From positions 1 to 35,505 of the forward strand of contig JAVCCE010000017.1 of assembly GCA_030765645.1 (NCBI GenBank): a DNA stretch of 35,505 nucleotides, given 5' to 3'. This document shows, one piece after another, positions 1-17,888 of the stretch. The stretch's first letter is position 1, and every line of letters starts with the position of its first letter. The notes beneath the pieces were generated by a model, which made no database searches, had not been told where the DNA came from, and saw nothing but the letters and a program-made list of their open reading frames with translations. This DNA comes from Candidatus Hinthialibacter antarcticus. Its GTDB lineage: Bacteria; Hinthialibacterota; Hinthialibacteria; Hinthialibacterales; Hinthialibacteraceae. The translations under genes and the position numbers were made by a program.

Positions 1-194
1 ATTGCGTGAAGAGAACCGTCGCCTAAAGTTGGAGCGCGACATCTTAAAAAAAGCGACGGCCTTCTTCGCCAAGGAAACGCCTTTTGGTTCGCCGAAATGA
101 AGGCGTACCTCATTGCGATTCCTTGGCGAAGAAGGCCGTCGCTTTTTTTAAGATGTCGCGCTCCAACTTTAGGCGACGGTTCTCTTCACGCAAT
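1..194. repeat. 75-bp perfect inverted repeat with 44-bp loop
   Basis: Bases 1-75 are the exact reverse complement of 120-194, separated by 76-119. Both arms encode the same piece of OrfA (LREENRRLKLERDILKKATAFFAKE), once on each strand. The left arm runs on to a different end (KETPFGSPK, stop at 98-100). It touches the first base of the window, so the true arm may be longer. It could be two IS copies joined head to head, or an artefact at a contig edge. Confidence 0.9.
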
Positions 195-397
195 TGCTTC
201 ACTTCAGCGCCTGGCCCTTCACCCGGTTTGAACGCGGCGGCGTCTTCATCCTGCAACTGCTTCTTCCAGCGCCACAGCATGTTCTCGCGAATGCCCAGGC
301 TTTCGGCGGCTTGGCGTACCGTATAGCCTTGCTTGGTTACCAAACCCATGGCGTCCACTTTGAATTCACGACTGTACTTCCGACGATTCTCACTCAT
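110..397 (-). CDS. IS3-family transposase OrfA (HTH subunit)
   Basis: The 95-residue protein has the standard OrfA plan. An N-terminal HTH follows the motif RKYSREFKVDAM (about 6-17), with the recognition segment VRQAAESLGIRENMLWRWKKQ at about 27-47. A leucine-zipper-like stretch, EVKQLREENRRLKLERDIL, lies at about 65-83. The family's usual end, ATAFFAKES, precedes the stop. In intact IS3 elements OrfA binds the terminal repeats, and a -1 frameshift near the end gives the OrfAB transposase. Here the orfB frame survives for only about 12 codons, so this copy cannot make OrfAB from this window. Length is normal for OrfA. Confidence 0.85.
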   Translation of the reverse strand: MSENRRKYSREFKVDAMGLVTKQGYTVRQAAESLGIRENMLWRWKKQLQDEDAAAFKPGEGPGAEVKQLREENRRLKLERDILKKATAFFAKESQ

Positions 398-501
398 CTC
401 AAATCCTCGCTTTCACGCTCTAGACTCCCTTAAACCACTGTCCGTGAAAACGAGGGTGTCTAGCCCCCATTTTTCGTGCCAGTAGAAGTGAGGCTAGACA
501 C

Positions 502-843: not shown

Positions 844-1435
844 ATGCAAATAAAAGTGAACTCAAATATACAAAAAATTCTTTTTTTTTGACACTGAAAC
901 CACTGGTCTTTATCGTCAAAGCCTTCCACTTGATCATCACAACCAACCAAGAATTGTCCAGATAGCAGCGATCTTATCCGACTCTAGCCAAAGAATATTA
1001 GACAGCTTTTGCATTTATGTGAAAAGTGATGTATCAATCCCTATTTCTACTACAAAAATTCATGGAATAACAAATGGGATATTGGAAAAAAAGGGATTAT
1101 CACAAATAGATGCAATTAGAAATTTTGAAAAACTTGCAGAAGAATCTGATTTATTTGTTTGTCATAATGTCAATTTTGATTTGAACTTAATACGCGCAAT
1201 GTTCGCGCGGAATTCCATTAGTTTCCCATGGGAGTATAAGCCATCATTCTGCACGATGAAGGCTTATACTCCCATATGCAAGATCCCTGGTAATCATGGG
1301 GAATATAAGTATGCTTCACTTCTTGAAGCATACTACCATGTTTTTAAGGAAGATTATTCTGGCAGACATCATGCTTTAAACGATGTGAAAGCTACGATGA
1401 AATTATTTTATTCTTTGCGACCGCAACATAAGTAG
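844..1435 (+). CDS. DEDDh (DnaQ-like) 3'-5' exonuclease, frameshifted at a T9 run
   Basis: Read with one T removed from the run at 881-889, the ATG at 844 gives a 196-residue protein starting MQIKVNSNIQKILFF, then DTETTG. This is the classic ExoI start of DnaQ/exonuclease-epsilon domains. ExoII is the segment HNVNFDLNLI and ExoIII is HHALNDVKAT, so all DEDDh residues are present (D16, E18, the FD aspartate, and H and D of HALND). As sequenced, the ATG frame stops at 889-891. The catalytic frame is open from 860 but has no good start before a GTG at 1019, which would lose ExoI. The cause may be a homopolymer error, slippage expression or true decay. The stop lies 11 nt from the outermost CRISPR repeat. 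In other type I-E systems DnaQ-like exonucleases trim prespacers or are fused to Cas2, so a role in adaptation is a reasonable guess, not shown. Confidence 0.75.
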
Positions 1436-1446
1436 AAGCATGTTAC

Positions 1447-4400
1447 GGTTCATCCCCACATGCGTGGGGAATACAGTGTATAACCATTATTCTCTGGATG
1501 GTTTTTCGGTTCATCCCCACATGCGTGGGGAATACGCTACCCGCCGGGTAGTCAACCCCTTATCTTACGGTTCATCCCCACATGCGTGGGGAATACAACT
1601 CCACTTGGGCCTCGGTAGCCACATGGACCGGTTCATCCCCACATGCGTGGGGAATACTTGGTGTGGGTTGCCGCGCTCCGCGAGACCGTCGGTTCATCCC
1701 CACATGCGTGGGGAATACAAGAGAATCCGCAACAATCAAAGGAATGGTCTCGGTTCATCCCCACATGCGTGGGGAATACATTACGCCGGAACACCACGTT
1801 TCCAAGCATCTCGGTTCATCCCCACATGCGTGGGGAATACATCGCCTTTGGTTCCTTTGCGGGTTGCGCCGCCGGTTCATCCCCACATGCGTGGGGAATA
1901 CGCCTAGTTCGCCTTCGTCCCAATCTAAGTTTACGGTTCATCCCCACATGCGTGGGGAATACTTCCAACGCCGCTTGGAGAAGTTCAATCCGATCGGTTC
2001 ATCCCCACATGCGTGGGGAATACCACGTGGCCTATGCCGCTAGGGGTGGACTAGGCGGTTCATCCCCACATGCGTGGGGAATACCTTCACTGATGAATGT
2101 GAGTTGAAGGAACCGACGGTTCATCCCCACATGCGTGGGGAATACTTGTTCTGCATCACTGCGATCGTCGAATGATTCGGTTCATCCCCACATGCGTGGG
2201 GAATACGTTTTCCAACCCCGCAGAATTAACGGTAGCGTCGGTTCATCCCCACATGCGTGGGGAATACGGATTAGGTTTGGCTCTATTTGCGCCTCTTGCC
2301 GGTTCATCCCCACATGCGTGGGGAATACAACACACGCGGCGCCGTCATCCCACACTAATACTGGTTCATCCCCACATGCGTGGGGAATACACTCCCCATG
2401 GGTGGTTGCATCCTCAGACGAACGGTTCATCCCCACATGCGTGGGGAATACTTGGGCGGCGGTATCGCTCAGATGAACACATTCGGTTCATCCCCACATG
2501 CGTGGGGAATACACAAATCGCAGACGGTGTCATCGCAGGGGTCTCGGTTCATCCCCACATGCGTGGGGAATACTCGTCATTGTCGCTCAACACGGCGAGA
2601 ACGGTCGGTTCATCCCCACATGCGTGGGGAATACAACGCCTGGACGATGTTTTGCATACAATAGGTCGGTTCATCCCCACATGCGTGGGGAATACTCCTA
2701 TCTTATTCGGGATTGAACGCTCATAAACGGGGTTCATCCCCACATGCGTGGGGAATACACCGGGCGGGTGACGGAGCGGTCGCTGTTTATCGGTTCATCC
2801 CCACATGCGTGGGGAATACGGCGTTCCTGGCGCGAATACAGTCTATGCGTACTTGGTTCATCCCCACATGCGTGGGGAATACACCTGTTGCCCGACCGCC
2901 TAAAATTGCATGGTCGGTTCATCCCCACATGCGTGGGGAATACGAGGCTGGGTGAGGGCCGTTACGCCGTTCTCTCGGTTCATCCCCACATGCGTGGGGA
3001 ATACAACGGCTTGTCTTTGGAGAGTCTCACACAGCGCGGTTCATCCCCACATGCGTGGGGAATACGCGCTCATCCATGCGAGCGTTCGGTTCATCGGCGG
3101 TTCATCCCCACATGCGTGGGGAATACTTGCTTTAGAATCTTTTCGCCTTTTACCAAGACGGTTCATCCCCACATGCGTGGGGAATACACATTTCCGCAAG
3201 CGTTCGCGGCGAACGATACCGGTTCATCCCCACATGCGTGGGGAATACATTTTCGTTGCAGCGGCTATTGGCGCTGTATGCGGTTCATCCCCACATGCGT
3301 GGGGAATACGATTCCTATTGCGGTGGTAGAACGGAATGTTTCGGTTCATCCCCACATGCGTGGGGAATACCGTTAATGAAACAGGATTACAAAACCTTAA
3401 ACCGGTTCATCCCCACATGCGTGGGGAATACGCGTCGTTTGTTTCGTCATTTTGATACCTATCCGGTTCATCCCCACATGCGTGGGGAATACATCTCATC
3501 GAGTTGTTGGTCAAAGACATCGGCCGGTTCATCCCCACATGCGTGGGGAATACGTTGCAATATCAGTGAAATGGTGTCCAGGAGTCCGGTTCATCCCCAC
3601 ATGCGTGGGGAATACTTTTTAACGTCGTCACCGTCATTGTCGCCGTCCGGTTCATCCCCACATGCGTGGGGAATACTGTACATTGCGTGTTACCAATCAC
3701 CTGTTTGACGGTTCATCCCCACATGCGTGGGGAATACCGCCCGAAAACACAACCGGCAGCAAGTCCGCGCGGTTCATCCCCACATGCGTGGGGAATACAA
3801 ATCCCTTTTGGTTTCTCGTTCTCATTCATGCGGTTCATCCCCACATGCGTGGGGAATACTTGTGAAGACCGAGACCGAGGCGAGCGGATGGCGGTTCATC
3901 CCCACATGCGTGGGGAATACGCCTTGAGCGTCACTTATTCGGCGATGGCGACCGGTTCATCCCCACATGCGTGGGGAATACGCCGCCACGACGCTACCGA
4001 CGATGTCTTCGTTCGGTTCATCCCCACATGCGTGGGGAATACGGAGAATTTGGCGGGCTTGGGTTGTATGAAAACGGTTCATCCCCACATGCGTGGGGAA
4101 TACTTAGCCTCTTGTATCTTTTGCTTTACATTGACCGGTTCATCCCCACATGCGTGGGGAATACAAACGATGAATGGTTAGGCAAATTCATCAGCGCGGT
4201 TCATCCCCACATGCGTGGGGAATACGATGTTAATTGTGTTTGGCATAATGGGCCTCGCGGTTCATCCCCACATGCGTGGGGAATACGGTATTGCGATTTT
4301 CTTAGTGTTTGTCGGTGTCGGTTCATCCCCACATGCGTGGGGAATACGTTTACTGCAATCAGTTCTTTGGTCGCTTCCTCGGTTCATCCCCACATGCGTG

Positions 4401-4469
4401 GGGAATACCGTACCCCCGGATTCAACCCCACCTTTGACCTCGGTTCATCCCCACATGCGTGGGGAATAC
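1447..4469 (-). CRISPR. Type I-E CRISPR array, 50 repeats and 49 spacers
   Basis: I counted 50 repeats of 28 bp, all identical by eye. On the plus strand they begin GGTTCATCCCC and end GTGGGGAATAC, with the hairpin CCCCaCATGCGtGGGG. The locus is transcribed on the minus strand, where the repeat begins GTATTCCCC and ends GGGGATGAACC, close to known I-E repeats. Starts run from 1447 to 4442 with a 61-bp period. Forty-five spacers are 33 bp, two are 34 (before the repeats at 2363 and 3588) and two are 35 (before 2731 and 2855). The base just left of each repeat is C except before 2363 (T), 2731 (G) and 2855 (T), so the 29th repeat base is spacer-derived as in E. coli. The leader end is at 4469. 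The distal repeat is not degenerate. I noticed no duplicated spacers. Confidence 0.98.
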
Positions 4470-4526
4470 ACTTGAAAAACACAGAACTTAGCCCTCAATA
4501 TTGCGTCTAAGTCTTAATGCAATATT
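4470..4526 (-). promoter_or_regulatory. CRISPR leader with promoter-like boxes and inverted repeat
   Basis: This is the AT-rich gap between the cas2 stop and the first repeat, read leftward. The minus strand has TTGCAT (4522-4517), a 16-nt spacer, then TATTGA (4500-4495), which would start transcription about 20 nt before the first repeat. The two boxes lie within the arms of an inverted repeat, AATATTGC at 4497-4504 and GCAATATT at 4519-4526. The dyad could bind a host factor, as IHF does at other I-E leaders, but no clear IHF consensus was recognised. Confidence 0.55.
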
Positions 4527-4845
4527 AAGGGGTTATTTCGTGTATTGGTGAATTACTTTTCTCTTTATGTTTATCAGGTTTAGTGATCAGTTGCAACCCA
4601 TCCCAGTCTGTCACAATACGAGACGGGTCATTTCGGTAGTCAATTTTATATCCTTGTTCGGTGTTGGTTCTCCAAATCAACATACATGCGCCATTTTTTA
4701 CACGTTCACTCACTTTTGTCCACAGTTTTTCTCTGACCTTCGCTGACACACGTCCAACAAAAACGCCTGCTTTGGGTTCGATAAGCCATCTTGTGAGTTC
4801 GCCCCGAAGCGACGGTGACACTCGTTCAAGAATCATGACGATCAT
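4525..4845 (-). CDS. cas2: CRISPR-associated protein Cas2, type I-E
   Basis: The 106-residue protein starts MIVMILERVSPSLRGELTRW and has the Cas2e body (EPKAGVFVGRVSAKVREKLW, then GACMLIWRTNTEQGY). Cas2 dimers bridge two Cas1 dimers to form the spacer integrase. I chose the ATG at 4845 because GAAGGAGA precedes it by a normal distance and because family members begin here. A longer open frame upstream only overlaps cas1. It overlaps the cas1 end by 21 bp, so the pair is translationally coupled. There is no DnaQ domain fused at the C-terminus, in contrast to some I-E Cas2 proteins. A separate DnaQ-type gene sits at the other end of the array. Confidence 0.95.
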   Translation of the reverse strand: MIVMILERVSPSLRGELTRWLIEPKAGVFVGRVSAKVREKLWTKVSERVKNGACMLIWRTNTEQGYKIDYRNDPSRIVTDWDGLQLITKPDKHKEKSNSPIHEITP

Positions 4846-5803
4846 TATTGTCTCCTTCTTCAGAAGAATTTTCGCCATAGGCTTTTCCGCCTTCGACGCC
4901 TTTTGACTGCGCCGGGTCCCAGAGTTGACCAGGCAAGGCAGGGTCAGAATCAAATCCATAGTCATCATCAAGCGGAGGTTCGATATCAAAAACATGGTTC
5001 AAATCATCTGCGATTCGAGAGAGAAGTTTTGTCTCGGCAAAATAGTCGCGGCAGGCGTAGCGCGCTTTGCGCTCTACATTGGTTGGTTCAGCAGCGGCGA
5101 CTTCAAACGCGGTTGGGACGGTAATATCAGTTTTATACAGATCAGCCAGGTCATAGACAAACGAGAGTTGTTTGCCAAAATGGATGAACCCGAGCGCGGT
5201 TGAGAACCCCATGGCGATAATGGCCGCATGACACACGCCGTATAAGCACGAATTGGCGCATGACAGGGCTTTGTTGACCGGATCAGACTTGTTCCAGCCG
5301 TCTCGCTTATAATTACGGCCTTCCCAGGGTACGCCGGTTTCTTTAGAACATTTCGCATAGGTTGAGCGAACGCGAACGCCTTCCATCCCTCTGATTTGTT
5401 GAAGAGAGAGCGACTCATCGAGCGTTTCGTTAAAGCGCATGTCATAGAGCCGCCTGACGACTTTCATTCTCGAGGGGTGATGAGAAAATAAACGCGCTTG
5501 TTTTTCGAGATTGGCCGCGTTTCGAGTTTCGCCCATACCGGATGCATAAAATCTCACACCTTGCTCTCCACACCATGCGGTCAAACATCCACAGTCAGCC
5601 AGAGTCAGAATGGCGCTATGGGTGATTCGTGTGCCCGGCCCTAACATCAAGAGCGAAAGCGAGGCGCATGGAACGGGGGTGATGCCTGAGTCGTCGTGGA
5701 TGGCGATTGCCTTAGCGTCTTTATCGATCTGGGCGTGTTCCACATATAAGTAGCTCCAACTGTCTTTTACTTTGGGGAGTTCATGCAAATCTTGGATGCG
5801 CAT
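4826..5803 (-). CDS. cas1: CRISPR-associated endonuclease/integrase Cas1, type I-E
   Basis: The 325-residue protein starts MRIQDLHELPKVKDSWSYLY. Metal ligands fall at the same numbers as in E. coli Cas1: E141 (RGMEGVRVR), H208 (FIHFGK) and D221 (VYDLADLYK). The N-terminal beta domain is followed by the all-helical catalytic domain. The C-terminal tail from about 285 is acidic and low in complexity, as is common in I-E Cas1. The start at 5803 was chosen over an upstream in-frame ATG because GGAGG lies just before it and the upstream extension is unlike the family. Cas1 with Cas2 captures prespacers and inserts them at the leader end. A possible own promoter lies upstream. Confidence 0.97.
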   Translation of the reverse strand: MRIQDLHELPKVKDSWSYLYVEHAQIDKDAKAIAIHDDSGITPVPCASLSLLMLGPGTRITHSAILTLADCGCLTAWCGEQGVRFYASGMGETRNAANLEKQARLFSHHPSRMKVVRRLYDMRFNETLDESLSLQQIRGMEGVRVRSTYAKCSKETGVPWEGRNYKRDGWNKSDPVNKALSCANSCLYGVCHAAIIAMGFSTALGFIHFGKQLSFVYDLADLYKTDITVPTAFEVAAAEPTNVERKARYACRDYFAETKLLSRIADDLNHVFDIEPPLDDDYGFDSDPALPGQLWDPAQSKGVEGGKAYGENSSEEGDNNDRHDS

Positions 5804-5913: not shown

Positions 5914-6618
5914 TTAACTGCCCCGTTTGATTGAAAGCAAACCAAAGCCGTAGGCTTTCGCCGGTCCAATTCCCTTTCTGAGCGCATCTTGGAACAGGTC
6001 AACGTTCGTGATTCGCAAACGGCCTTCATACAAGACAGAGTGAAAGGTCATGCGGTGAGTGTTTTTCTCGCCCACCTGCATCGCAGTTTCGGTGAGTGAT
6101 CTCATATCAAGAACGTCTTGATTTAACGCGACTGAGAGCAAAGTGAAGCCAGCCTGATCTCCCTTGCGTTTGAGCCAATCGATTTGTTCGCGGTCGCCGC
6201 GAATAGGTTCCCGGCGTCCATTGGATTTCGTTCCATCAGGATTGGATTTGGTATTCACTTTTCGCGTTGGATTAGCGCGAAGACGAAACGATAAGACCTG
6301 CTCTTGTTTGAGGCCTTGATAAGCGCTCTCGACTGATTTAATGTCGCGAGCCTCTTCGTATGAAACAAAGTAGCGTTTGAAGCGTCCCTCAATATTTGAC
6401 CAGTCAGGCTTTATATTCGATTGCGCCAAGACGACCGGCATTCTGGCTCGCGGATCAATGTCGGTTCGGTGGAGCAATCCAACACTATTTCGTGGGAAAT
6501 CGCTTTTTTCATCAAACTCAAACGCCCGCAGTAACGTGCGATGAAGGTTGTGGCAGTCGCTCAGGTCTTTTTGGACTTGCCGGTTTTCAGGATTTAGCAT
6601 GAGACGCGAGAGATACAT
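5914..6618 (-). CDS. cas6e: Cas6e (CasE), pre-crRNA endoribonuclease
   Basis: The 234-residue protein starts MYLSRLMLNPENRQVQKDLS, typical of Cse3/CasE. The conserved helix DCHNLHRTLLRAF puts H26 where the T. thermophilus family catalytic His sits. The C-terminal glycine-rich loop is GIGPAKAYGFGLLSI. It cuts within each repeat below the hairpin and stays bound to the crRNA 3' stem in Cascade. The start at 6618 has AAAGGAGG about 6 nt upstream. An ATG 13 codons earlier lies inside cas5 and adds no family sequence. It overlaps the cas5 end by 32 bp. Confidence 0.95.
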   Translation of the reverse strand: MYLSRLMLNPENRQVQKDLSDCHNLHRTLLRAFEFDEKSDFPRNSVGLLHRTDIDPRARMPVVLAQSNIKPDWSNIEGRFKRYFVSYEEARDIKSVESAYQGLKQEQVLSFRLRANPTRKVNTKSNPDGTKSNGRREPIRGDREQIDWLKRKGDQAGFTLLSVALNQDVLDMRSLTETAMQVGEKNTHRMTFHSVLYEGRLRITNVDLFQDALRKGIGPAKAYGFGLLSIKRGS

Positions 6619-7315
6619 TGCGCTCCTCCTTTCCATCATCAATGGGGAAACCATCAATCAATTGCGATTTGACGTAGCGCAGCCGAAAGCAGCGGTCATG
6701 CTTGATAAACGAAACGGGGAGGTCCATGCGGGCGACGCCCTCATCAGGCTCGCACTCAATCACCATGCGTAGTTTGTCTTTTGGAGTCTTTAAACTTCGT
6801 TGTCGCCATGGGACTGCTTGTAGTACAGACGGACAATCGCCTTCTTTCACGCCAAGCGACAAGGGCGCCTCGGGCGGAAAGGCTTTGCGGCCCAGATAGA
6901 GCGGCCAATGAGGATTGAGCAACGCATGATGAATTTGGCGCAGCAACTCGTCGGGGCCTTCAAGCGCGACGTGAAATTCCGCATCGGCTAAGTAATAGCG
7001 ATTGGAGACGACCGTTTCGCCAACTTTGCCCTCTGATTTGAGAACGCCGTATTTCTTCACGCCGGGGATATCGCCGCCTCCGGCGGTTTGGTAGTCGCGG
7101 CTTATGATACCGTCATGGTCAATGCGCACCGCCATCTTTAGTTCAGCCAACGGGCGTATGCCGTCTTCGTCGGCGCGGTCGACGCCCAGCGCGGCGCAGA
7201 GCAATCCAACTACGCCGCTTTTTGACGGTTCGCGACCCGCGTCGCGTTCGGTGAAGCGGCTTTGCGTTCCCCAGGATTGCATGGGGGCCGCGAGCCGCAA
7301 TAGCAGGCAACTCAT
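6587..7315 (-). CDS. cas5e: Cas5e (CasD), Cascade subunit capping the crRNA 5' handle
   Basis: The 242-residue protein opens MSCLLLRLAAPMQSWGTQSR, the diagnostic Cas5e start. SKSGVVGLLCAALGVDR follows, then the family's thumb region (about 70-115, RDYQTAGGGDIPGVKKYG...SNRYYLADAEF) and LYLGRKAFPP. Cas5e binds the 8-nt 5' handle of the crRNA and contacts Cse1. It has AAAGGGG upstream of its ATG and overlaps cas7 by 4 bp (ATGA type), which implies coupled translation. Confidence 0.95.
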   Translation of the reverse strand: MSCLLLRLAAPMQSWGTQSRFTERDAGREPSKSGVVGLLCAALGVDRADEDGIRPLAELKMAVRIDHDGIISRDYQTAGGGDIPGVKKYGVLKSEGKVGETVVSNRYYLADAEFHVALEGPDELLRQIHHALLNPHWPLYLGRKAFPPEAPLSLGVKEGDCPSVLQAVPWRQRSLKTPKDKLRMVIECEPDEGVARMDLPVSFIKHDRCFRLRYVKSQLIDGFPIDDGKEERNVSLASHAKS

Positions 7316-8433
7316 GACAACGCCCCTTTGACCCGAGCGACGAGTTCATTGAAGTTGTCTACCTTGCCCTGAAGGTTGGCGGGTTCGATTTCTTCAAGCG
7401 AGCAAAACGCGCTGGCAGTCGGCTCGGCGCCGTACATGGCGGATAGTTTGCCCCAATAGGAATCCAGCGCTTCGATGGAATGTTTCGCCAAACCGCTGCC
7501 GTTGGCGCGGACGGGCGATTCAAACGCATTCGCCAGAGACCAGGGAGCGCCGCTATCGCGGACCACGGCGTAGACGAAACTCGGAGGATTGTGGGCTGCG
7601 AAAGTGTTTTGTTTCCCTGTCGGGATGGCTTCGGGCAAAGCGCGCAGGAAGGCTTCGACGGTATTCATTGCGAGTTCCTGATCGCCGCCCAGGTTTTTCA
7701 GAAGTTTTTTCCAATGGATAACGGCGTAGCGATAAAAGCAGGCGCTGTTAAACTCAACCACGCCCATCATGTCGGCGCCGGTTTCGCCGTCTTCTTGGAG
7801 GTCATCGACGGCGGTGAAGAAATCCATTTCTTGTTCGACTTTGTGGGTGGAAATCGCATGAGCAACCTGGCAAGCCGCGTCTATATTCATTTTCTGTGCA
7901 TTAGCAAGCATTCTACCAAAAAGAGCTATGTCTGGAGTTTGAGGGAATTTTTCGTAAGAATTTAAGAATTCTTTGGTGAATTTCTCTTTATCTGCTTTTT
8001 TCTTCGCTTTTGAAATGGCATCAAAGTTAGCATCAATAAAATTTATGAGGGAATTTAAATCTTCTTCTGTTAACCAACTTGTAGCTGCACATTTTTGATA
8101 CTCCTTCTCTTTCTCTTTGCCCTCTTTCTCATCGTTACTGCTCTTTATGAGTGAACTAATAAAATTGCCAAGGGTAGTTGCGATTTTTTTGTCTTTTGAC
8201 TTTGATTCAACGATCTCCTCTAGTTTAGAAATTTGCCATCTTGTTCTATTGGCAAGGTTCGTATCTAGAGTATTCTTAAAAATATCCTCGTGTCTTATGG
8301 CGCGTTTGATGCACTGACTGGAGATGCGGGCGCGGCGCACGCCGCCGAAGATGCAGTCTTTGGGCGTGTTGGTGTCGTCGCGATTCAAGCAGGATGGAGC
8401 GAAATTTTGAATGACGTGAGTTTCGATAAACAT
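7312..8433 (-). CDS. cas7e: Cas7e (CasC/Cse4), Cascade backbone
   Basis: The 373-residue protein starts MFIETHVIQNFAPSCLNRDD, then RRARISSQCIKRAIR, both hallmarks of Cse4. Six copies coat the spacer part of the crRNA in known I-E Cascades. The segment from about 85 to 165 is rich in Lys, Glu and Ser (SNDEKEGKEKEKEYQ) and is coded by AT-rich DNA unlike its flanks. It corresponds to the variable helical/finger insertion of the family. The C-terminal half has the usual ARXXGADMMGVVEFNS-like region (ETGADMMGVVEFNSACFYRY). The start has AAAGGGA 9 nt upstream. The gap to cse2 is 21 bp. Confidence 0.96.
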   Translation of the reverse strand: MFIETHVIQNFAPSCLNRDDTNTPKDCIFGGVRRARISSQCIKRAIRHEDIFKNTLDTNLANRTRWQISKLEEIVESKSKDKKIATTLGNFISSLIKSSNDEKEGKEKEKEYQKCAATSWLTEEDLNSLINFIDANFDAISKAKKKADKEKFTKEFLNSYEKFPQTPDIALFGRMLANAQKMNIDAACQVAHAISTHKVEQEMDFFTAVDDLQEDGETGADMMGVVEFNSACFYRYAVIHWKKLLKNLGGDQELAMNTVEAFLRALPEAIPTGKQNTFAAHNPPSFVYAVVRDSGAPWSLANAFESPVRANGSGLAKHSIEALDSYWGKLSAMYGAEPTASAFCSLEEIEPANLQGKVDNFNELVARVKGALS

Positions 8434-8454: not shown

Positions 8455-8970
8455 TTAGTTTTCGTTGGATTGGTCTTCGGTTTTTGAATACGCCCAGAAT
8501 GAGCGCGCCCATTGTTCTTGTACGGTCCGCCGGTCGCTGTCCCACCAGCGCAGATCGTCTAACAACTGCGCGTAATCGACGCCGACGCCTTTTGACTTCA
8601 GCAAACTGACGGCATGGCGCAGCCGTCCTGGCAATTCCTCACGATTGGCGTTGAGCAGGTTCACGAAACGCTTTTCAAGGCTGGAACTTTTTTCAGCGTC
8701 CATCCAGATGGAGTGAAAAGACGCACCCAAATTGCCGATGGTCTGGTGCTCGTCGTGCAGAGCGAACAACGACGCAACCAAATAGATCTCATCGCGTTCA
8801 CGCAACGTTGTCTTGTCGCCAAGAAAACGCCCGACGTATGGATAAACGTCGGCGACGGTCCCCGGCGGCTTACCAAGCCCACGGCGCAGGTGGGCGAGGG
8901 CGCCTCGGTTCTGCTGCTGTTTGAGCGACAGCAGGTAATCAATGAATGGATGACTTCGGTCACTGGGCAT
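8455..8970 (-). CDS. cse2: Cse2 (CasB), Cascade small subunit
   Basis: The 171-residue helical protein begins MPSDRSHPFIDYLLSLKQQQ and continues with GALAHLRRGLGKPPGT, the conserved Cse2 signature. Two copies form the belly of Cascade and steady the R-loop. A strong GGAGGAGG precedes the ATG inside the end of cse1, and the genes overlap by 11 bp. Length is normal for the family. Confidence 0.95.
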   Translation of the reverse strand: MPSDRSHPFIDYLLSLKQQQNRGALAHLRRGLGKPPGTVADVYPYVGRFLGDKTTLRERDEIYLVASLFALHDEHQTIGNLGASFHSIWMDAEKSSSLEKRFVNLLNANREELPGRLRHAVSLLKSKGVGVDYAQLLDDLRWWDSDRRTVQEQWARSFWAYSKTEDQSNEN

Positions 8971-10534
8971 AAGACTTTTCCTCCTCCATTTCGGACGATT
9001 GATGATTTTGTTCGGGGAACAATTGTTTGAGTTCGTAAGATAATTTGCGGCGGGCTTTGACGGCGGCTTGCAGCGAGCGCGCGGAACCGTCGAGACCGCG
9101 AAGGGTTATTTCGAGCGCATCGCGGGCCGTTTGCTGCAAGGCCTTCGCCCATTCGCTTTGGGCCGGTTCTATGTCATTCGGAAGGCCCAGATACAGATCA
9201 TAAAAAGCCGGTTCCAGTCGCGCCCAAAATTCCCGCGAGGAAGGGAAACTATTACGCAATTCCGTGACCTTGTTTCTGTCAGGCGTCCGGTCTGAACCGT
9301 CATACGGGGCGAGTAAATCAGATGCAAGAAACCAAAGTGTTTTGTTATGAAGCGACTTGTAAGTTTCTTCTGCAAGCGTGAGGTTTCGTTCGAGAGTAAA
9401 GACCGTGTTTTCGTCTTTGAGGTATACAATTGGGAGCGGGAACCGTTCATGACGCCAAATGTTGATTTTGGCTGCTTTACGATCATCCGGTTTGAAGCCG
9501 AGTATTTCGAGAGATATAGAGTGAAACTTCAGTTCTTTAAATTCAAATATAGCATTTTTGTATTGGCATACTGTTTCAGCAGGTTTTTTTAGTTGCGCTC
9601 CAATATGAATCAAGACAGAACTGTCGCGCCACAATGCTCTTTCTTCTTTTATTCGAAGTGGAATCCAACCGCTTTGTTCATCTTTTTTGACGTAACTAAG
9701 CATTGGGTCAAGCCATGGACCTTCTGTTATCGCTACACCTTGTTGAATTTGAACAGAATCGACTTTGCCTCTCTCATTGCAATTGAGTTTTAATCGTCTA
9801 GCGGGAATTGTCAGCAAATCCAGGTAGCCATACGGCAGACGTTTTTGTGGTACGATTTCATCCTGCTCCCAACTTGGAATATCTTTATACGTTGGGATAA
9901 TCGTTTCTGGATATTCTTCTCCATAGCAACAGACGAGATTTAAGCAAAACGTTTCAAAAAGCGTTTTGCCTTTTAGTAACACCAAAGAGCCTCTTACTAA
10001 TACTGCATGACTTAAAGGAAATGGTTTCGAGACGCCGCCTCCAACTGCAAAAGATTGAGTTGCAACAACATATCTTGCTGCATTTGCTGCGCTCCACTCT
10101 GGCGATTCGATAGATGTTGTGTGGTCAAATAATGTGTCATTGTTTCCCGACGCCATTTCTTGCGCTAATTTTGATAAAGAGTGCTTTTCTGCGTGAATCA
10201 CTTCATCATCAATAGACTGATAAAATGGCCGCTCAGGATGAAAGAGGTCGAATCGCTCTTTCCAGTTTTCAAAGTATGAGTCTAATACGCCATCATCGAA
10301 TTGGCCTTTTTGATAAAGCGCAAACCAACAATCCAAATCTTCAGGACCGAAGTTGCGATGAAGAATCGCAAGCAACAAGCGATGAAGCGAAGCCGTAACC
10401 AGGGGAGACTGATGACTGATTTCGCGCAATTGATGAGACTGCCGCAATACGTCGAGCAAGCCAAGTTCTTTTAGGTTCCCGTTTGAATCAATGCAGGGAA
10501 TCCAAGGCTCGTGAATGAGATTAAAAGACGCCAT
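8960..10534 (-). CDS. cse1: Cse1 (CasA/Cas8e), Cascade large subunit, PAM reader
   Basis: The 524-residue protein starts MASFNLIHEPWIPCIDSNGN, the standard Cse1 opening. It contains the conserved FHPERPFYQ (about 96-104) and a TLFDHTT segment (about 134-140). A four-helix-bundle C-terminal domain ends in QLFPEQNHQSSEMEEEKSYAQ. In I-E systems this subunit recognises the PAM and recruits Cas3. AAGGAGAAAGAGG precedes the ATG, and the gene overlaps the cas3 end by 14 bp. Confidence 0.96.
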   Translation of the reverse strand: MASFNLIHEPWIPCIDSNGNLKELGLLDVLRQSHQLREISHQSPLVTASLHRLLLAILHRNFGPEDLDCWFALYQKGQFDDGVLDSYFENWKERFDLFHPERPFYQSIDDEVIHAEKHSLSKLAQEMASGNNDTLFDHTTSIESPEWSAANAARYVVATQSFAVGGGVSKPFPLSHAVLVRGSLVLLKGKTLFETFCLNLVCCYGEEYPETIIPTYKDIPSWEQDEIVPQKRLPYGYLDLLTIPARRLKLNCNERGKVDSVQIQQGVAITEGPWLDPMLSYVKKDEQSGWIPLRIKEERALWRDSSVLIHIGAQLKKPAETVCQYKNAIFEFKELKFHSISLEILGFKPDDRKAAKINIWRHERFPLPIVYLKDENTVFTLERNLTLAEETYKSLHNKTLWFLASDLLAPYDGSDRTPDRNKVTELRNSFPSSREFWARLEPAFYDLYLGLPNDIEPAQSEWAKALQQTARDALEITLRGLDGSARSLQAAVKARRKLSYELKQLFPEQNHQSSEMEEEKSYAQ

Positions 10535-13205
10535 CCTCTTTCTCCTTTATCATATTTTTAATTGTTATTCCTAATTCAGGATCATATTCGAGTTGTTTGA
10601 TATCTGCGTCATAAATGCTGTTTTCAAATACGACGGCTCTGTAATGGCGCAATATCCGATGCGTCTTCCATTCATTGGGGATCAACCCTTCAGGCAAATC
10701 ATTTGTGCAGCCAAAGTACGATAATGAAACTGAAGATGAGATCAGTTGCTTGACTTTTTCAGATCGTGCTTTGCCCTCTTGCGGTAATTTTTTTTCATCT
10801 TCTGAAGCAAGGCAGACGATTTGAAGAGAGGGTGAAGTCAAACGCGTATCTGCTCGTAGTGAATGGTGTACATCGGGATTGTCTTCATCTAATTCGCGGT
10901 TCCATGAGGAAAGCGCATTTTTGCTTGATGGTTTTTTGATGGTTATACCGTTTGCTATGCTTTTGTGTTCATTTATTTTTTCTTCTGAACGGACTTTCGC
11001 ATCGCGCAATCGGTCATCGGCATCTTCGCTCAGGTCTCCGTAAACGCTTTCGATGAGGGATTCAAAATCGCCGGGAGAGGCGATGGTTGTGCGGTCGCGC
11101 AGCGCGCACCAACTGCGCAGCATAATGTATTCATCGTAGAATTTTGCGGAAAACACCGGGCCGTCGGTGCTATCGTTTGGCTTAACGATGCAGAGAGTTG
11201 GTTCGCGCAATGGCTTGGGACGCTTTTTGGCGTATTGTTTGTGACGGTGAAGGCGACCGGAGCGTTGAAGAATCAAGTCAACCGGCGCCATGTCGGTCAT
11301 CATGAAATCAAAATCTAAATCCAGGCTTTGCTCGACAACCTGTGTGGCAATCAGCACCGATTTCTTGGGGCGCGTTTCGCGGCGCTTACCGAACTGGGTC
11401 ACGAATTTTGTTTCTAACTCAAACCGCTTTCCCATAGGAAAACGGGCATGGAATAGCCCCAATTCAATCTCATCATCAATGAAAGACTGTTTGCAATGAC
11501 AGTAAACCTCTTGCGCCCGCGTGACTGTATTGCAGATGTACACTGCGCAACCGCCTTCGCGCAATGCCGTTTTTAAGCAGTCGCATATCTCGCCATATTC
11601 ATCTTCGACCCATTTTAAGCGCACAACGGATTTGCGTTCTTGCGACGCAGGAACATGGATGCACTCCACTTGATTATCTTCCGTGGTCAGCGTGACGCGG
11701 GGATACGGCGTTTCATTCGGGGATTCCAATTTTTTTGCGCCAAATGCGGCAATCATTTTCTCGCGCGTCTTCGCCGGTAGTGTGGCGGACAGTATGACGA
11801 CAGTGCAATTGAGCGCCGACAACCACTGCAACAGGCGCTCGAACAAAGTGAACATATATGCGTCATACGCGTGTACTTCATCAAAAATGATCGTTTTTCC
11901 CGCCAAGCCAAATAGTCGCAAAAACCCATGCCGCACTTGCAGGACCGACGTTAAGGCCTGGTCGACAGTGCCGACGGCAAACGGCGCTAACAGCCCCCGT
12001 TTTGGTTGAGAAAACCAATCCATTGCAGCAACGCCGCTATGATTGTCGCCATCTTGTTGAATCGCCGCCGCTCGCATGGTGTGATAGTCGTCATTCAGCA
12101 GCACATGGCTATGTAAAAGCAAGTTGTAGAATTCTTGCCCTGGGTGGCGCCTACGTAAGAATTCTTCGGTGCGGCTGTATAACTGGTTGCTGGCTGCCAT
12201 CGTGGGGAGCGCAAAATAGACTCCACTTTGATCACGTTCATTGCGCCAATATTCATGCAGAAACAATGCGGCTTCGGTTTTGCCTTCACCCATGGGTGAC
12301 TCAATGATAGCGAAGCGTGGTTGAGATTTTGTTGCATCCTTGGCTCGCGACTGGATTTTTTCCTGGAGCGGTCTCGGTGAAAAACTGAAGAGCGATTGGA
12401 AGATGACGGGTTGTTTTTCTAATGAATAACCCGTCCAGCGAATTTTATTTAATGCATCTTTGGCCTTTTGATTGCTTTGCTTCCAATAGTCTTCTAGGTT
12501 GTCGCAATCGGGTTGGTAACCGAAAAAAATGCTGTTCGATGCGATCCAATCAGCGAGACAAACAAAGCCCGCCAACCAAAACGCAGATGCGTTGTCCTCT
12601 TTTGTTAATGTCGGCCAATTATCTTGAGGGTGAATTATATCAAATAAACATTGAGTAACTTGTATTCTTGCATCGCTCCAAATTTTTGCCCGATCTTCTT
12701 TTGCTTTAAGATGTCTGGAAGTGTTATTAATGTCGCCTGGTCTTGGGAATACACCGTGATGTCCACCGAGAATGAATTGAATTTGACGTAATGAATCTCT
12801 TTTGCAAGATGCAAGGAGGCCGTCCAGACATTCCGGCAAAACCGCTGCCGAGACAAACCCGTGAGGGAGGCGATCATTAGATGAACTCGAAAGCGTTTGA
12901 TATGCATTTTGTTGAATGAGAAAATCTTGGGTTTGTCTCGGCGCGCAGTCCATGCATTGGAAGTAGGGATTTAACTTCCCTATATCATGCAACGCTGTGA
13001 TGAATGAAAGCCAATGAGGAGCGTATTCAATATTTGTATTCGTTTGGTGGGCCCAGTGTTGAACATCTGGTCGCAATCGTTCAGAATGGGCAAGTTGAAG
13101 ACCAACTGCAGCGGAATCAATCAGATGCAAGATTAATGAATGGAATTCTTCATCATCAGTCGTTTTGGCCCACAAACTAAATAAATCAATATCAAAAGTG
13201 TTCAT
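10521..13205 (-). CDS. cas3: Cas3 HD nuclease-helicase
   Basis: The 894-residue protein has an N-terminal HD nuclease (about 1-270) and an SF2 helicase. HD residues seen are H27 (LHLIDSAAVG), H73-D74 (ALHDIGK), H115 (RLPHGF), H149-H150 (GGHHGVFP) and D219 (LADWIASN). Helicase motifs are Walker A SPMGEGKTEA (303-312), DEVH (442-445), SAT (473-475) and motif VI QRSGRLHRH (647-655). All key residues appear intact, so interference is likely functional. Cas3 is recruited by Cascade to unwind and degrade the target. It is the first gene of the leftward operon. The upstream 176 bp has no clear promoter, and the ribosome site (AGGGATTGG) is modest. Confidence 0.97.
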   Translation of the reverse strand: MNTFDIDLFSLWAKTTDDEEFHSLILHLIDSAAVGLQLAHSERLRPDVQHWAHQTNTNIEYAPHWLSFITALHDIGKLNPYFQCMDCAPRQTQDFLIQQNAYQTLSSSSNDRLPHGFVSAAVLPECLDGLLASCKRDSLRQIQFILGGHHGVFPRPGDINNTSRHLKAKEDRAKIWSDARIQVTQCLFDIIHPQDNWPTLTKEDNASAFWLAGFVCLADWIASNSIFFGYQPDCDNLEDYWKQSNQKAKDALNKIRWTGYSLEKQPVIFQSLFSFSPRPLQEKIQSRAKDATKSQPRFAIIESPMGEGKTEAALFLHEYWRNERDQSGVYFALPTMAASNQLYSRTEEFLRRRHPGQEFYNLLLHSHVLLNDDYHTMRAAAIQQDGDNHSGVAAMDWFSQPKRGLLAPFAVGTVDQALTSVLQVRHGFLRLFGLAGKTIIFDEVHAYDAYMFTLFERLLQWLSALNCTVVILSATLPAKTREKMIAAFGAKKLESPNETPYPRVTLTTEDNQVECIHVPASQERKSVVRLKWVEDEYGEICDCLKTALREGGCAVYICNTVTRAQEVYCHCKQSFIDDEIELGLFHARFPMGKRFELETKFVTQFGKRRETRPKKSVLIATQVVEQSLDLDFDFMMTDMAPVDLILQRSGRLHRHKQYAKKRPKPLREPTLCIVKPNDSTDGPVFSAKFYDEYIMLRSWCALRDRTTIASPGDFESLIESVYGDLSEDADDRLRDAKVRSEEKINEHKSIANGITIKKPSSKNALSSWNRELDEDNPDVHHSLRADTRLTSPSLQIVCLASEDEKKLPQEGKARSEKVKQLISSSVSLSYFGCTNDLPEGLIPNEWKTHRILRHYRAVVFENSIYDADIKQLEYDPELGITIKNMIKEKEDGVF

Positions 13206-13381: not shown

Positions 13382-14284
13382 TCAAGGTGAATTGAATAGT
13401 ATCTCTAAAGTCTTAAATTGCTCATCATATTTGGTTCGATTGCTTTCTTTTAATGTCCGTAGGTTTTGTAGTTTCCATTGTACGGCGGGGAATCGCTCGA
13501 AGTCGTATATCTCCCAGGCAGGTTCAAGATTCAATACGCTGAGCAGGAACGCTTTATCTTGATCTGACAGTGATTGATGAATGGTATTGATCAATGAGTC
13601 TCTTGTCTCACCGAATTCTTCATAAGAAAACAGTTCTTCAGACATCCCTTCAAACTGGGTGCTCATCGTTTTTCGTTGGTCAATCAAATTTGGATTCAGG
13701 ATTTCATGGAACGGCCTGTTGCTGCTCAGCAGAGTAAGAAGAAATCCTGTTTTCACTTCATCAGAAAAGCCTTCATTATTGAGCAAATACCGGACATCGA
13801 ATAAATCTCTGGGGTGTTGCCGATCTAGTGCAGCGCAGATTTTACTACCAAATAATTGTCCAAACGGCACAACCGGGATTACGCAATATGCGTTAAATTG
13901 TTCTTGCGCCTCTGGACAGAGAATTCGCTGCTCAGAGTTTGCCAACACACCTCGGTTAACAAGATTGATTTCAATTTTTATTGTTGAATGTTTTCTTGAA
14001 ATCAGAAGTTTGCCTACATCTGGCTTTTGCTGTACATGTGCGTCAGATATTACTTTTGACACGTTTTGCGTAATTCTCTCAAGCCCAATGGTAATTTGAT
14101 TAAGAGATGATTCTCTGTCCTCGAAGGGTACAAAGGTCAGGTCAATATCAACTGATAGCCTTGGCATATCACGAATGAACAAGTTAATCGCCGTGCCGCC
14201 ATGCAGAGCGAAGCAATCTTCTTTCGCGACTTCCGGCAAAACAGCCAGCAGCAGTTCAACTTGTTCTTTATAAAGTTGCTTCAT
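13382..14284 (-). CDS. abiEii: AbiEii/AbiGii-family nucleotidyltransferase toxin
   Basis: The 300-residue protein carries the DUF1814/AbiEii nucleotidyltransferase core. ALHGGTAINLFIRDM (26-40) holds the GG motif, and RLSVDIDLTF (42-51) supplies the two metal aspartates, D46 and D48. KIEINLVNRG gives the third strand. HPRDLFDVRYLL (about 155-166) matches the conserved C-lobe segment. In type IV toxin-antitoxin systems AbiEii acts as a growth-arresting toxin during phage infection. It overlaps abiEi by 17 bp on the same strand. All motifs are present, so the toxin is probably active. It stands directly upstream of cas3, as expected in a defence island. Confidence 0.88.
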   Translation of the reverse strand: MKQLYKEQVELLLAVLPEVAKEDCFALHGGTAINLFIRDMPRLSVDIDLTFVPFEDRESSLNQITIGLERITQNVSKVISDAHVQQKPDVGKLLISRKHSTIKIEINLVNRGVLANSEQRILCPEAQEQFNAYCVIPVVPFGQLFGSKICAALDRQHPRDLFDVRYLLNNEGFSDEVKTGFLLTLLSSNRPFHEILNPNLIDQRKTMSTQFEGMSEELFSYEEFGETRDSLINTIHQSLSDQDKAFLLSVLNLEPAWEIYDFERFPAVQWKLQNLRTLKESNRTKYDEQFKTLEILFNSP

Positions 14285-15050
14285 CGTTTCTGATCATTTC
14301 TGGCGGCAAAGTTATTTTGTATTTTGGTTCATAGACTCCATTTTCAACGATGCTTCGAACGCCGACTCCCATATCTATTTTTTCAGCATCTAATCTACTG
14401 AACCAGGCATGACCGGATTTTTCCGCCATAAACATGAAGAGCCTTTTGACTTTGATCGACTTGCATGTTTCGAGTAATGCCTGAACCTGGTCGGGCCTGA
14501 GGTTGTTAAGGCTTTCCATGATTTCATAGCATTCAGTGAGTTCTTGTTTTTTGGGGGCGAGATGGAGACATTCCAAGAGGGCGCGGATCGGGTTTGATAT
14601 CTTTATTTGAAAGTTATTAAAATTCAAATCAACCAGTCCTATTTCTGGCGGCAGAAAGTCAGACCTGTGATAACTTAGGTTCACTCCCCAGTTATGGTTT
14701 TTAAACCATTGAGGAAGTTTCTCGCCATTCTTACCAAACAATACAATGTTCTTTTGATCGAGTTCCAGGTATTGTCCTTTGCCGTGAATTGCCAGTGCTG
14801 TTCTACCGCCGGGATGGATTCGTGAGCCGATTTGTTTTTGTAGCGCATAGATGCCGCCTTCAAAACCAACTTGGTTTCCGGCGCGAATCAAGGCGCCATG
14901 CCCGATTGACTCAAACCAACCGTTTTTTTTGTAGACTTTTTGCAAATCGAGGCTATACCCTTGCCTGGTTAGCCAAGAGGATAGCAATACGGTTCCCGCA
15001 GGTTGGGAATCGAGAAGTTTCTTTAATTTTCTTCCGGTATTGGTATTCAC
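14268..15050 (-). CDS. abiEi: AbiEi-family antitoxin and transcriptional repressor
   Basis: The 260-residue protein has an N-terminal winged-helix region (about 1-70, LLSSWLTRQGYSLDLQKVYKKN...) and the conserved HPGGRTALAIHG segment (about 78-89). SNPIRALLECLHL (about 152-164) marks the C-terminal antitoxin domain. AbiEi proteins repress their own operon through inverted repeats and neutralise AbiEii. I take the GTG at 15050 as start. It lies inside a palindrome that matches a second one upstream. It overlaps abiEii by 17 bp. Confidence 0.87.
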   Translation of the reverse strand: MNTNTGRKLKKLLDSQPAGTVLLSSWLTRQGYSLDLQKVYKKNGWFESIGHGALIRAGNQVGFEGGIYALQKQIGSRIHPGGRTALAIHGKGQYLELDQKNIVLFGKNGEKLPQWFKNHNWGVNLSYHRSDFLPPEIGLVDLNFNNFQIKISNPIRALLECLHLAPKKQELTECYEIMESLNNLRPDQVQALLETCKSIKVKRLFMFMAEKSGHAWFSRLDAEKIDMGVGVRSIVENGVYEPKYKITLPPEMIRNDEATL

Positions 15051-15502: not shown

Positions 15503-16297
15503 TTAAAGCATCTGGCTGGCGAGTAATTTACCGAATTCTACGCCCTCGTCATACAGCATCTGCGCGGCGGTTGCGGCTTCGCCCAGGTCTTTCATCCCGT
15601 TTAGGTCGGTTTCGATGTCAGGGTGGTTGAACCCGGTCGATACGCCATCCCGGTATTCCTGCGGCTGAGATAATAAATAATTTAACTCATCTGGCGGAAG
15701 AAAGACCGATTGACGGGGCGGGTTACCCAGCGCCTGCCGTGCAACGTCGTTACGCAGGTACAGGAGCGTATTATATTCTCGACGCTCCCGTTGTCGGGCG
15801 GCGCGGAAAACGGGGCGTAGGACGCCCTTCTCCATCCATTTTGACACCGTTCCTTTCTCGACGCCAAGGAAAGAACACACATCGCGGAATTCGACCAGGT
15901 CATTTTCCGTGAAACCCGACGCCTGCTGCATGATCGCATTATCTGTAGCCTCGTCTATCGTCGGCACCGGGCGCTCTCGGCCTGATATCTCACGACGGCA
16001 TAGCCTGTGGATCGCGCCGAACGAAAGAGCCTCGCGTTCGCGGATTTCGTCGATGTATCGGCGGAACACCCCATCGCTCACTTTCGCCAGCGTTTGACAG
16101 CGAGAAGCCAGAGTTTTCTCAATTCCTAAGTCCTTTAATTTAGGGATGTCTGGTGGGGTTGCACGGTGCAACTCCACCTCTTTTTGGTGTTGATTTCTCT
16201 CATCCCCTCGTGCGCCGTGTTGCTTTTCCATCTGTTGCAGATATTTACCCATTTCTCGCGATGCGTTGATATGGATTAGGCTTGCGTCATCGACCAC
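15503..16297 (-). CDS. Phage-type protein with LKDLGI motif and C-terminal HTH (copy 1, 5' end cut by amber codon)
   Basis: This is the only copy in the array with a long C-terminus (264 residues from a GTG). The N-terminal part (about 1-85) has INASREMGKYLQQMEK, then IPKLKDLGIEKTLASRCQTLAKV. That pattern is shared with a widespread uncharacterised phage/plasmid protein family (LGI..SSR.Q.LA). The segment at about 130-185 (ENDLVEFRDVCSFLGVEKGTVSKWMEKG...) looks like a MerR-like HTH. Sister copies show the gene once began about 45 codons earlier. Here a TAG at 16300-16298 replaces a CAG, so the GTG start is forced and has no clear ribosome site. Function is unknown, and a DNA-binding role is inferred from the HTH. 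It is probably a decayed gene. Confidence 0.6.
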   Translation of the reverse strand: MVDDASLIHINASREMGKYLQQMEKQHGARGDERNQHQKEVELHRATPPDIPKLKDLGIEKTLASRCQTLAKVSDGVFRRYIDEIREREALSFGAIHRLCRREISGRERPVPTIDEATDNAIMQQASGFTENDLVEFRDVCSFLGVEKGTVSKWMEKGVLRPVFRAARQRERREYNTLLYLRNDVARQALGNPPRQSVFLPPDELNYLLSQPQEYRDGVSTGFNHPDIETDLNGMKDLGEAATAAQMLYDEGVEFGKLLASQML

Positions 16298-16300
16298 CTA

Positions 16301-16470
16301 GCGGGTCAGATTGTGGGATTGCAGCAAATTGGTCAGTATCCGGGCGTAGTCCCTGATTTCTCTCAGGTCATCCAGGGATGCGGCAGCGTCGAGCGCCTGT
16401 TGCAAGCGTTCGATTATCGCTTCCGCGTATTTCTTCAACATAGCGTTCAAATACCACGTCCCCCACTTTT
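16301..16470 (-). pseudogene. Copy 1, severed 5' segment
   Basis: In the frame of copy 1 upstream of the amber codon the DNA still reads AIIERLQQALDAAASLDDL, then REIRDYARILTNLLQSHNLTR. This matches the start of copy 7 (MIGRLQLALDAAASLKDL...). It shares DNA with the out-of-frame tail of copy 2, showing where the two copies were joined. Confidence 0.6.
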
Positions 16471-16724
16471 GCCAGCGTTTGCACGCGAGAGGCTAGATTG
16501 TAGTTAATCCCTAAGTCCTTTAATGTAGGGATGTCTTCAGGCGCTCCCATCGTGGTAGTGCCGGACATTTGAACGCCGGGGTTTTTATCCATCTCCAATA
16601 GCATTTCGCCGATTGCCCGTGAGGCGTCCAGGTAGATAAGCGTGACTTCGTCGATGACTTCTTTGGTTTGCTGATGTTTTTTTAGAATTTTTCGGAGCGC
16701 GTCCGCGTGCGGTACGCGTTGCGG
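16368..16724 (-). pseudogene. Copy 2 of the LKDLGI phage-type gene, fragment
   Basis: The frame reads ADALRKILKKHQQTKEVIDE, then VTLIYLDASRAIGEMLLEMD, then IPTLKDLGINYNLASRVQTL. It leaves the family sequence after VEEIR and ends in an unrelated tail, because the DNA there is the 5' end of copy 1 in another frame. It belongs to a second sequence type (QTKEVIDEV) that differs from copies 1, 5, 6 and 7 (LTRQVVDDA). Its hairpin at 16538-16564 is decayed (8 of 11 pairs). Confidence 0.65.
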
Positions 16725-17010
16725 CGGTTATCTCGCGCTTGCAGAGCCGATGCACGGCAGCGAAGGTCAACGATTCGCCCGGCTTTTCGAGCAACTCATG
16801 GATATATCGGTCATAGACAGGGCGATTGACTCGCGCCAGCGTTTGAACGCGAGACGCCAACATCTTGTCTATCCCTAAGCCTTTTAATGTAGGGATGCTA
16901 TCGGGCGGTAACATCGTGTTACCGCCCGATACCTGATCTTGAATATTACCCTTGACGCCGGGGTTCTTTTCCATGTTGAGAAGAAACTCGCCGATTGACC
17001 GCGAGAGGCG
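16700..17010 (-). pseudogene. Copy 3 of the LKDLGI phage-type gene, fragment
   Basis: The frame reads IGEFLLNMEKNPGVKG, then GGNTMLPPDSIPTLKGLGID, then AVHRLCKREITAATR, so it extends past the junction used by copies 2, 6 and 7 into the region shared only with copy 1. It then runs out of frame into copy 2. It has the longest hairpin: arms TATCGGGCGGTAAC and GTTACCGCCCGATA at 16899-16931. The 5' end is missing where it meets copy 4. Confidence 0.65.
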
Positions 17011-17236
17011 TAAGTTTTCTCTATTCCTAAACCCTTTAATGTTGGGGGCTCAACCGGTAACACTCTGTTACCGGTTGAATTCTTTCCGCCGTTATTCTTT
17101 TCCGTTGCCAGTAACTTCTCACCGAATGCGCGTGAGTTGTCCAGGTGAATAATCGTGACTTCGTCGATCACCTCTTTGGTTTGTTGATGGGCGCAGAGGT
17201 GATAAAATGTGAGATAACTATTCTTATGTGATTCCC
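17010..17236 (-). pseudogene. Copy 4 of the LKDLGI phage-type gene, fragment
   Basis: The frame reads YHLCAHQQTKEVIDEVTIIH, then LDNSRAFGEKLLATEKNN, then PPTLKGLGIEKTYASR. It stops matching at both ends and is fused to copies 5 and 3. Copies 3 and 4 have hairpin centres 149 bp apart, and 149 plus the next gap of 212 equals 361, one normal period. A deletion within a former unit is therefore likely. The hairpin at 17051-17077 is perfect (arms CAACCGGTAAC and GTTACCGGTTG). Confidence 0.65.
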
Positions 17237-17510
17237 TAAGTCCTTTAATGTAGGGATGTCCTCCCGTGGTTGCATCGTGCAACCGCCGGACATTTGAACG
17301 CCTGGGTTTTTGTCCATCTGTTGCAAATATCTACCCATTTCGCGTGAAGCGTTGATATGAATGAGGCCTACGTCATCGACCGCCTGGCGGGTCAGGTTGT
17401 GGGCTTGAAGTAAATTGGTGAGTATCCGGGCTTAATCCCGAACCTCTTTCAGGTCTTTCAAAGACGCTGCCGCGTCAAGCGCTTGCTGCAAACGCCCGAT
17501 CATGGCGTTG
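17236..17510 (-). pseudogene. Copy 5 of the LKDLGI phage-type gene, fragment
   Basis: It starts like copy 7 (MIGRLQQALDAAASLKDL from 17503) but has TAA at 17434-17432 in place of the Tyr codon of RDYARIL. After IPTLKDLG it runs into copy 4 sequence. The same TAA occurs at the same codon in copy 6, so the nonsense change predates, or was copied during, the duplication. Confidence 0.65.
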
Positions 17511-17888
17511 GCGGATTTCATCGACGTAGCGATTGAATACCACGTCCCCCACTTTTGCCAGCGTTTGCACGCGAGAGGCTAGATTGTAGTCAATCCCTAA
17601 GTCTTTTAATGTAGGGATGTCTGGTGGGGTAACACGTTGTGACTCCACCTCTTTTTGGTGTTGATTTCTCTCATCCCCTCGTGCGCCGTGTTGCTTTTCC
17701 ATCTGTTGCAGATATTTACCCATTTCTCGCGATGCGTTGATATGGATGAGGCTTGCGTCATCGACCACCTGGCGGGTCAGGTTGTGCGCTTGAAGTAAAT
17801 TGGTGAGTATCCGGGCTTAATCCCGAACCTCTTTCAGGTCTTTCAAAGACGCTGCCGCGTCAAGCGCTTGCTGCAAACGCCCGATCAT
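17475..17888 (-). pseudogene. Copy 6 of the LKDLGI phage-type gene, with in-frame TAA
   Basis: It has the full N-terminal unit from MIGRLQQAL (17888), broken by TAA at 17819-17817. It then continues VDDASLIHINASREMGKYLQ, then IPTLKDLGIDYNLASRVQTL, and ends VDEIRQRHDRAFAASA when it slips out of frame into copy 5. A 97-residue open frame survives from a GTG at 17768. Its middle part is close to copy 1, including the KQHGARGDERNQHQKEVE stretch. Confidence 0.65.

Follow-up and report, generated by a model that had tools for sequence, protein, structure and literature searches.

The stretch analyzed here (the window) covers 35.5 kb from the start of contig 17 in the 5.1-Mb genome of Candidatus Hinthialibacter antarcticus. 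It carries a complete type I-E CRISPR-Cas locus on the minus strand, in which cas3, cse1, cse2, cas7e, cas5e, cas6e, cas1e, and cas2e are found all together (Table 1). By its gene set, this is a type I-E CRISPR-Cas system of the ordinary kind. The true start of cas6e probably lies about 40 bases downstream of the longest-frame start. A Cas1 search of genome contigs returned one relative, L020, on a contig without an array. An AbiEii/AbiEi toxin-antitoxin-type defense pair was seen upstream of cas3 (13382-15050, minus strand). At 15503-18249 (minus strand), several related, partly degenerate frames have VDDASLIHINASREMGKYLQQ in common and resemble decaying tandem gene copies. The contig end (window 1-400) holds an IS3-type transposase orfA-like frame, which follows an apparent inverted copy of part of itself; the two are possibly an assembly hairpin.

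Table 1. Features of the type I-E locus and of the four over-length spacers (window positions).
Feature	Position	Strand	Remarks
DEDDh (DnaQ-like) exonuclease gene, adjoining the oldest repeat	844..1435	+	PADLOC DEDDh 2.4e-24; Pfam RNase_T
Type I-E CRISPR array, 50 repeats / 49 spacers	1446..4469	- (crRNA strand)	oldest end at 1446
Spacer 15 (35th from leader), 34 nt	2329..2362	-	crRNA start A-G; one extra PAM-side base
Spacer 21 (29th from leader), 35 nt	2696..2730	-	start CC-G; two extra bases, non-AAG
Spacer 23 (27th from leader), 35 nt	2820..2854	-	start AA-G; AAG whole
Spacer 35 (15th from leader), 34 nt	3554..3587	-	start G-G, end C; ambiguous
Candidate leader, flanked by cas2 and the newest repeat	4470..4524	-	position and orientation
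cas2e	4525..4851	-	Pfam PF09707 4e-32; PADLOC Cas2e 1e-36
cas1e	4826..5803	-	PADLOC Cas1e 1.5e-119; 42% identity with E. coli Cas1
cas6e (longest frame)	5914..6657	-	Pfam PF08798 3e-56
cas5e	6587..7315	-	
cas7e	7312..8433	-	
cse2	8455..8970	-	Pfam PF09485 5e-34
cse1 (cas8e)	8960..10534	-	Pfam PF09481 4e-97
cas3	10521..13205	-	Cas3 HD and helicase domains

The 28-nt repeat, GGTTCATCCCCACATGCGTGGGGAATAC, is identical in all 50 copies. Its crRNA-strand form, GTATTCCCCACGCATGTGGGGATGAACC, ends in CC and is directly followed by G, the 29th base, in 46 of 49 cases. Forty-five of the 49 spacers are 33 nt long including this G, which corresponds to the type I-E pattern of a 28-nt repeat, a G as 29th base, and spacers of 32-33 nt; two spacers have 34 nt and two have 35 nt. 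All 45 of the 33-nt spacers end in C on the plus strand, that is, they begin with G on the crRNA strand. Re-parsing of the array reproduced exactly the coordinates, lengths, and base readings of an earlier note on this DNA, which had pointed out that the four long spacers also have C at position 33 (2361, 2728, 2852, and 3586) and that the extra bases T, GG, TT, and C follow it.

Next to the repeat, a base other than G was found in three of the four long spacers and in none of the 45 normal ones (Fisher p=2.2e-4, this array). Because excess length and the non-G start coincide, spacers 15, 21, and 23 can be taken as lengthened at their PAM end. In these three informative spacers, G stands at the predicted displaced position each time (chance about 0.016), and in two of the three the start agrees with a suffix of AAG (about 0.004 as the chance of two or more); all of these tests were framed post hoc and concern three spacers. 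The best reading of spacers 15 and 23 is PAM-side under-trimming of an AAG-type PAM. Among the over-length spacers of the whole set described below, only spacer 23 starts with AAG. The A signature is limited to spacers 15 and 23, which counts against under-trimming, as does the CC-G start of spacer 21, which is not a form of AAG. Spacer 35 has C at both positions 33 and 34 and is uninformative on which of its ends grew. A flipped insertion was considered as well but dropped, since a reversed AAG is not seen at the far ends of the long spacers.

The extra bases might instead have come from the repeat end, by a misplaced cut or slippage there, and not from the target. This is most plausible for spacer 21, whose CC duplicates the two terminal bases of the repeat; L210, with a repeat that likewise ends in CC, has a similar CC-G 35-mer. 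A repeat ending in CC cannot, however, yield A or AA, and all 50 repeat cores are identical. As an account of the long spacers, we consider such repeat-end events improbable. Spacer 21 in particular seems to reflect PAM-side imprecision, and miscutting at the repeat end is as likely there as a CCG flank, because the CC copies the repeat end and L210 contains the similar 35-mer.

For spacers 15 and 23, we propose trimming that stopped early. Each insertion would duplicate the 28-nt repeat, while the 29th base, G, would be supplied by the incoming fragment. In these two spacers, the PAM-bearing 3' overhang would have been trimmed too little before integration: a stop one or two bases short of the G of AAG would seal A or AA into the array. 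We infer that the extra bases derive from the target and that the PAM is AAG. In the alignment with E. coli Cas1, the residues R138, Y165, W170, Y188, K211, and Y217, which we take to be those lining its PAM pocket, are all identical in the Cas1 of the window, and the conservation of these six candidate PAM-pocket residues was counted in favor of under-trimming. In the E. coli type I-E system, the 33-bp fragment brings in the AAG-derived G that ends up as the final base of the new repeat; Cas1 protects the PAM end, and its late trimming follows the joining of the opposite end to the leader (PMC10011333). The guide of an under-trimmed spacer would begin one or two bases early, so that Cascade would see a shifted PAM. 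By analogy with slipped spacers, which have been argued to interfere poorly and may prime (PMC6568314), a guide shifted in this way would probably support poor interference and might still prime.

For comparison, type I-E arrays were gathered from plasmids, from E. coli K-12, and from genomes throughout the bacteria, and an array was included if at least 70% of its spacers start with G. This rule left out a few small arrays in the wrong register (e.g., L190 and L202). The resulting set holds 52 arrays including the window, with 1,725 spacers between intact flanking repeats; 51 arrays and 1,676 spacers are from elsewhere, many of these arrays coming from one class that includes Thermus and Deinococcus, and identical spacers were discarded, which removes kinship only partly. 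In some I-E arrays (L165, L167, L172, L211, L212, L217-L219, L226, and L228) C or T, not G, was seen after the 28-nt repeat, which suggests PAM families without a final G.

Spacers of at least 34 nt are common elsewhere (200 of 1,676). Since 184 of these 200 still start with G, most length variation is PAM-distal. The remaining 16 long spacers lack the G; 8 of them start with AG and 11 with A. Among the 1,476 normal-length spacers elsewhere, 72 do not start with G, and of these 13 start with AG and 19 with A. The difference between long and normal-length non-G spacers is significant for both starts (Fisher p=0.019 for AG and p=0.003 for A), and the AG share of the long ones (8/16) also exceeds the background of 8.4% (p=1.7e-5). 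The AG-starting long spacers are spread over seven loci. This A-G pattern was first spotted in the window and a first batch of arrays and was then checked on a second batch, which repeats the excess alone (5/11, p=0.0013). G at the exact displaced index was found in 8 of the 16 long non-G spacers elsewhere (p=0.07), which counts against under-trimming. Long spacers of the PAM-side kind are somewhat more frequent in the window (3/49) than elsewhere (16/1,676; p=0.015).

The G-starting long spacers have a property of their own. In the G-type arrays (L100-L228), 131 of 184 end in C, compared with 488 of 1,298 33-mers (p=8e-18), and the excess is kept when a subset not belonging to the Thermus/Deinococcus class is taken (22/33 versus 125/405), which points to a preference for a 3' terminal C in leader-side trimming or integration. 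With its initial G and final C, spacer 35 resembles the PAM-distal-long spacers elsewhere, and because of this it most likely belongs to the common class of PAM-distal lengthening. Two length errors can thus be told apart: lengthening at the PAM side is rare, whereas PAM-distal lengthening is common and mostly leaves a terminal C.

These data also bear on PAM-independent acquisition combined with ordinary length noise, in which spacers 15, 21, and 23 would be three long non-G fragments taken up without a PAM and their displaced G would be fortuitous. The 72 normal-length non-G spacers and the 200 long spacers found elsewhere show that both ingredients occur. In the window, however, non-G starts are confined to long spacers (3/4 versus 0/45), G is present at all three displaced positions, and A-G is enriched in other arrays. 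We regard this alternative as unlikely, though it keeps some weight. Two of the spacers are best read as rare under-trimming (a "minus slip"), and a third possibly so. The explanation as a whole, with spacers 15 and 23 as products of an under-trimmed AAG-type PAM, spacer 35 as a PAM-distal variant, and spacer 21 as a case of PAM-side imprecision, appears probable. The earlier note had read the four spacers as an apparent record of incomplete trimming of an AAG-type PAM, with CCG and GG as off-consensus or differently processed cases. Lengthening of spacers 15, 21, and 23 at the PAM end is upheld, and A-G and AA-G are still read as untrimmed AAG, a claim that gains from the A-G starts of long spacers elsewhere (8/16 against a background of about 8%). 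The trimming reading is not supported for spacer 35, where PAM-distal lengthening, the condition of 184 of 200 long spacers elsewhere, fits better, nor for spacer 21, whose CC-G is not an AAG form.

A further candidate for the cause of incomplete trimming is the DEDDh exonuclease gene, which ends 11 bases from the oldest repeat and is not part of the cas operon, being encoded on the opposite strand. The catalytic motifs DTE, NxxFD, and HxxxxD are present in the alignment. From the ATG, the frame hits a stop at a nine-T run (881-889); no other A or T run of nine or more was found in the window. The gene is thus broken, slippery, or misassembled. An intact gene, as expected of a CRISPR-associated DEDDh exonuclease, was not found, since the frame is broken at 881-889, and a role in trimming is putative. 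A DEDDh-like gene was also seen in L170 (8300-8851, minus strand), directly upstream of cas3 and on the same strand as the I-E operon, as if it were an operon member.

Decay of the array-adjacent gene by the T-run frameshift could have caused incomplete PAM trimming here. PAM trimming by a DEDDh exonuclease is known from a fused I-E system (PMC10284694), the gene adjoins the array with its frame broken, and PAM-side-long spacers are overrepresented in the window as given above. In contrast, the affected spacers are the 27th, 29th, and 35th from the leader, and the newest 26 contain none (a weak argument, P=0.19). The gene stands apart from the cas operon, and its frameshift may be an assembly error. 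A-G also occurs in arrays elsewhere, although the partial stretches of those loci that were covered have no DEDDh-like frame, such a frame being seen only in L165, L170, and L171. In E. coli, prespacer ends were the same when DnaQ and ExoT had been lost (PMC9699676). Taken together, decay of this gene is a very improbable cause. A more elaborate version, in which a CRISPR-dedicated DEDDh trimmer would switch phase by slippage at the nine T and the array would log its off phases as PAM-keeping spacers, including the whole AAG, is given the least credence of all.

Protospacers were sought for all spacers. Whole-array and spacer-only queries against phages and plasmids gave no credible protospacer for any of them: the matches were CRISPR arrays or were explained by the repeat, and the remainder was at chance level (E 0.3 to 7). 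The phylum is represented by 14 genomes in the collection used, and these contained no convincing protospacer. IMG/VR viral contigs were searched with pair-merged degenerate exact patterns that covered 16 spacers, the four long ones among them. Each contig obtained was examined again, and there was no true match; the best candidate (25/32 bases) had mismatches at the PAM-side end and was rejected as a chance match. In plasmids, the PAM-side-odd spacers from other arrays matched no sequence but the arrays they belong to, and in phages they had no credible match. The absence of protospacer matches is not evidence against under-trimming; it reflects thin sampling of the viruses of this host and the use of exact-match patterns.

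If the proposed explanation is true, database arrays already record PAM-trimming errors. For uncultured I-E systems, the PAM and the fidelity of its trimming could then be estimated even where protospacers are lacking, from the tendency of long spacers whose G is displaced to read A-G.

Among known systems, the E. coli K-12 type I-E system is like that of the window in its gene set, its duplicated 28-nt repeat, and the G of AAG (PMC10011333, PMC9699676), and the window Cas1 is 42% identical to its Cas1 with the candidate PAM-pocket residues kept. It differs in that both long spacers of E. coli K-12 start with G, with no PAM-side case, and the AAG-type PAM of the window is putative. In the Megasphaera I-E Cas1-Cas2/DEDDh trimmer-integrase, the exonuclease removes the PAM late and is accurate to 1-2 nt (PMC10284694). 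Integrated products of this DEDDh-equipped integrase in vitro were sequenced without a PAM, which counts against under-trimming (PMC10284694). The Megasphaera DEDDh domain is fused to Cas2, whereas the window has a separate, frame-broken gene past the far end of the array, whose functional association with the system is putative. A close parallel for the length variants is the type I-F system of Pectobacterium atrosepticum, in which slips that retain the PAM correlate with longer spacers and other length variants mostly arise from the PAM-distal cut (PMC5059440). The same split between PAM-side and PAM-distal variants is seen here in I-E arrays, with the difference that I-E normally keeps one PAM base (G) and I-F keeps none. 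The P. atrosepticum data comprise millions of mapped acquisitions, whereas natural I-E arrays were read here without their targets. Slipping is an established error class, and the present finding is a natural, target-free example of it from an uncultured host.
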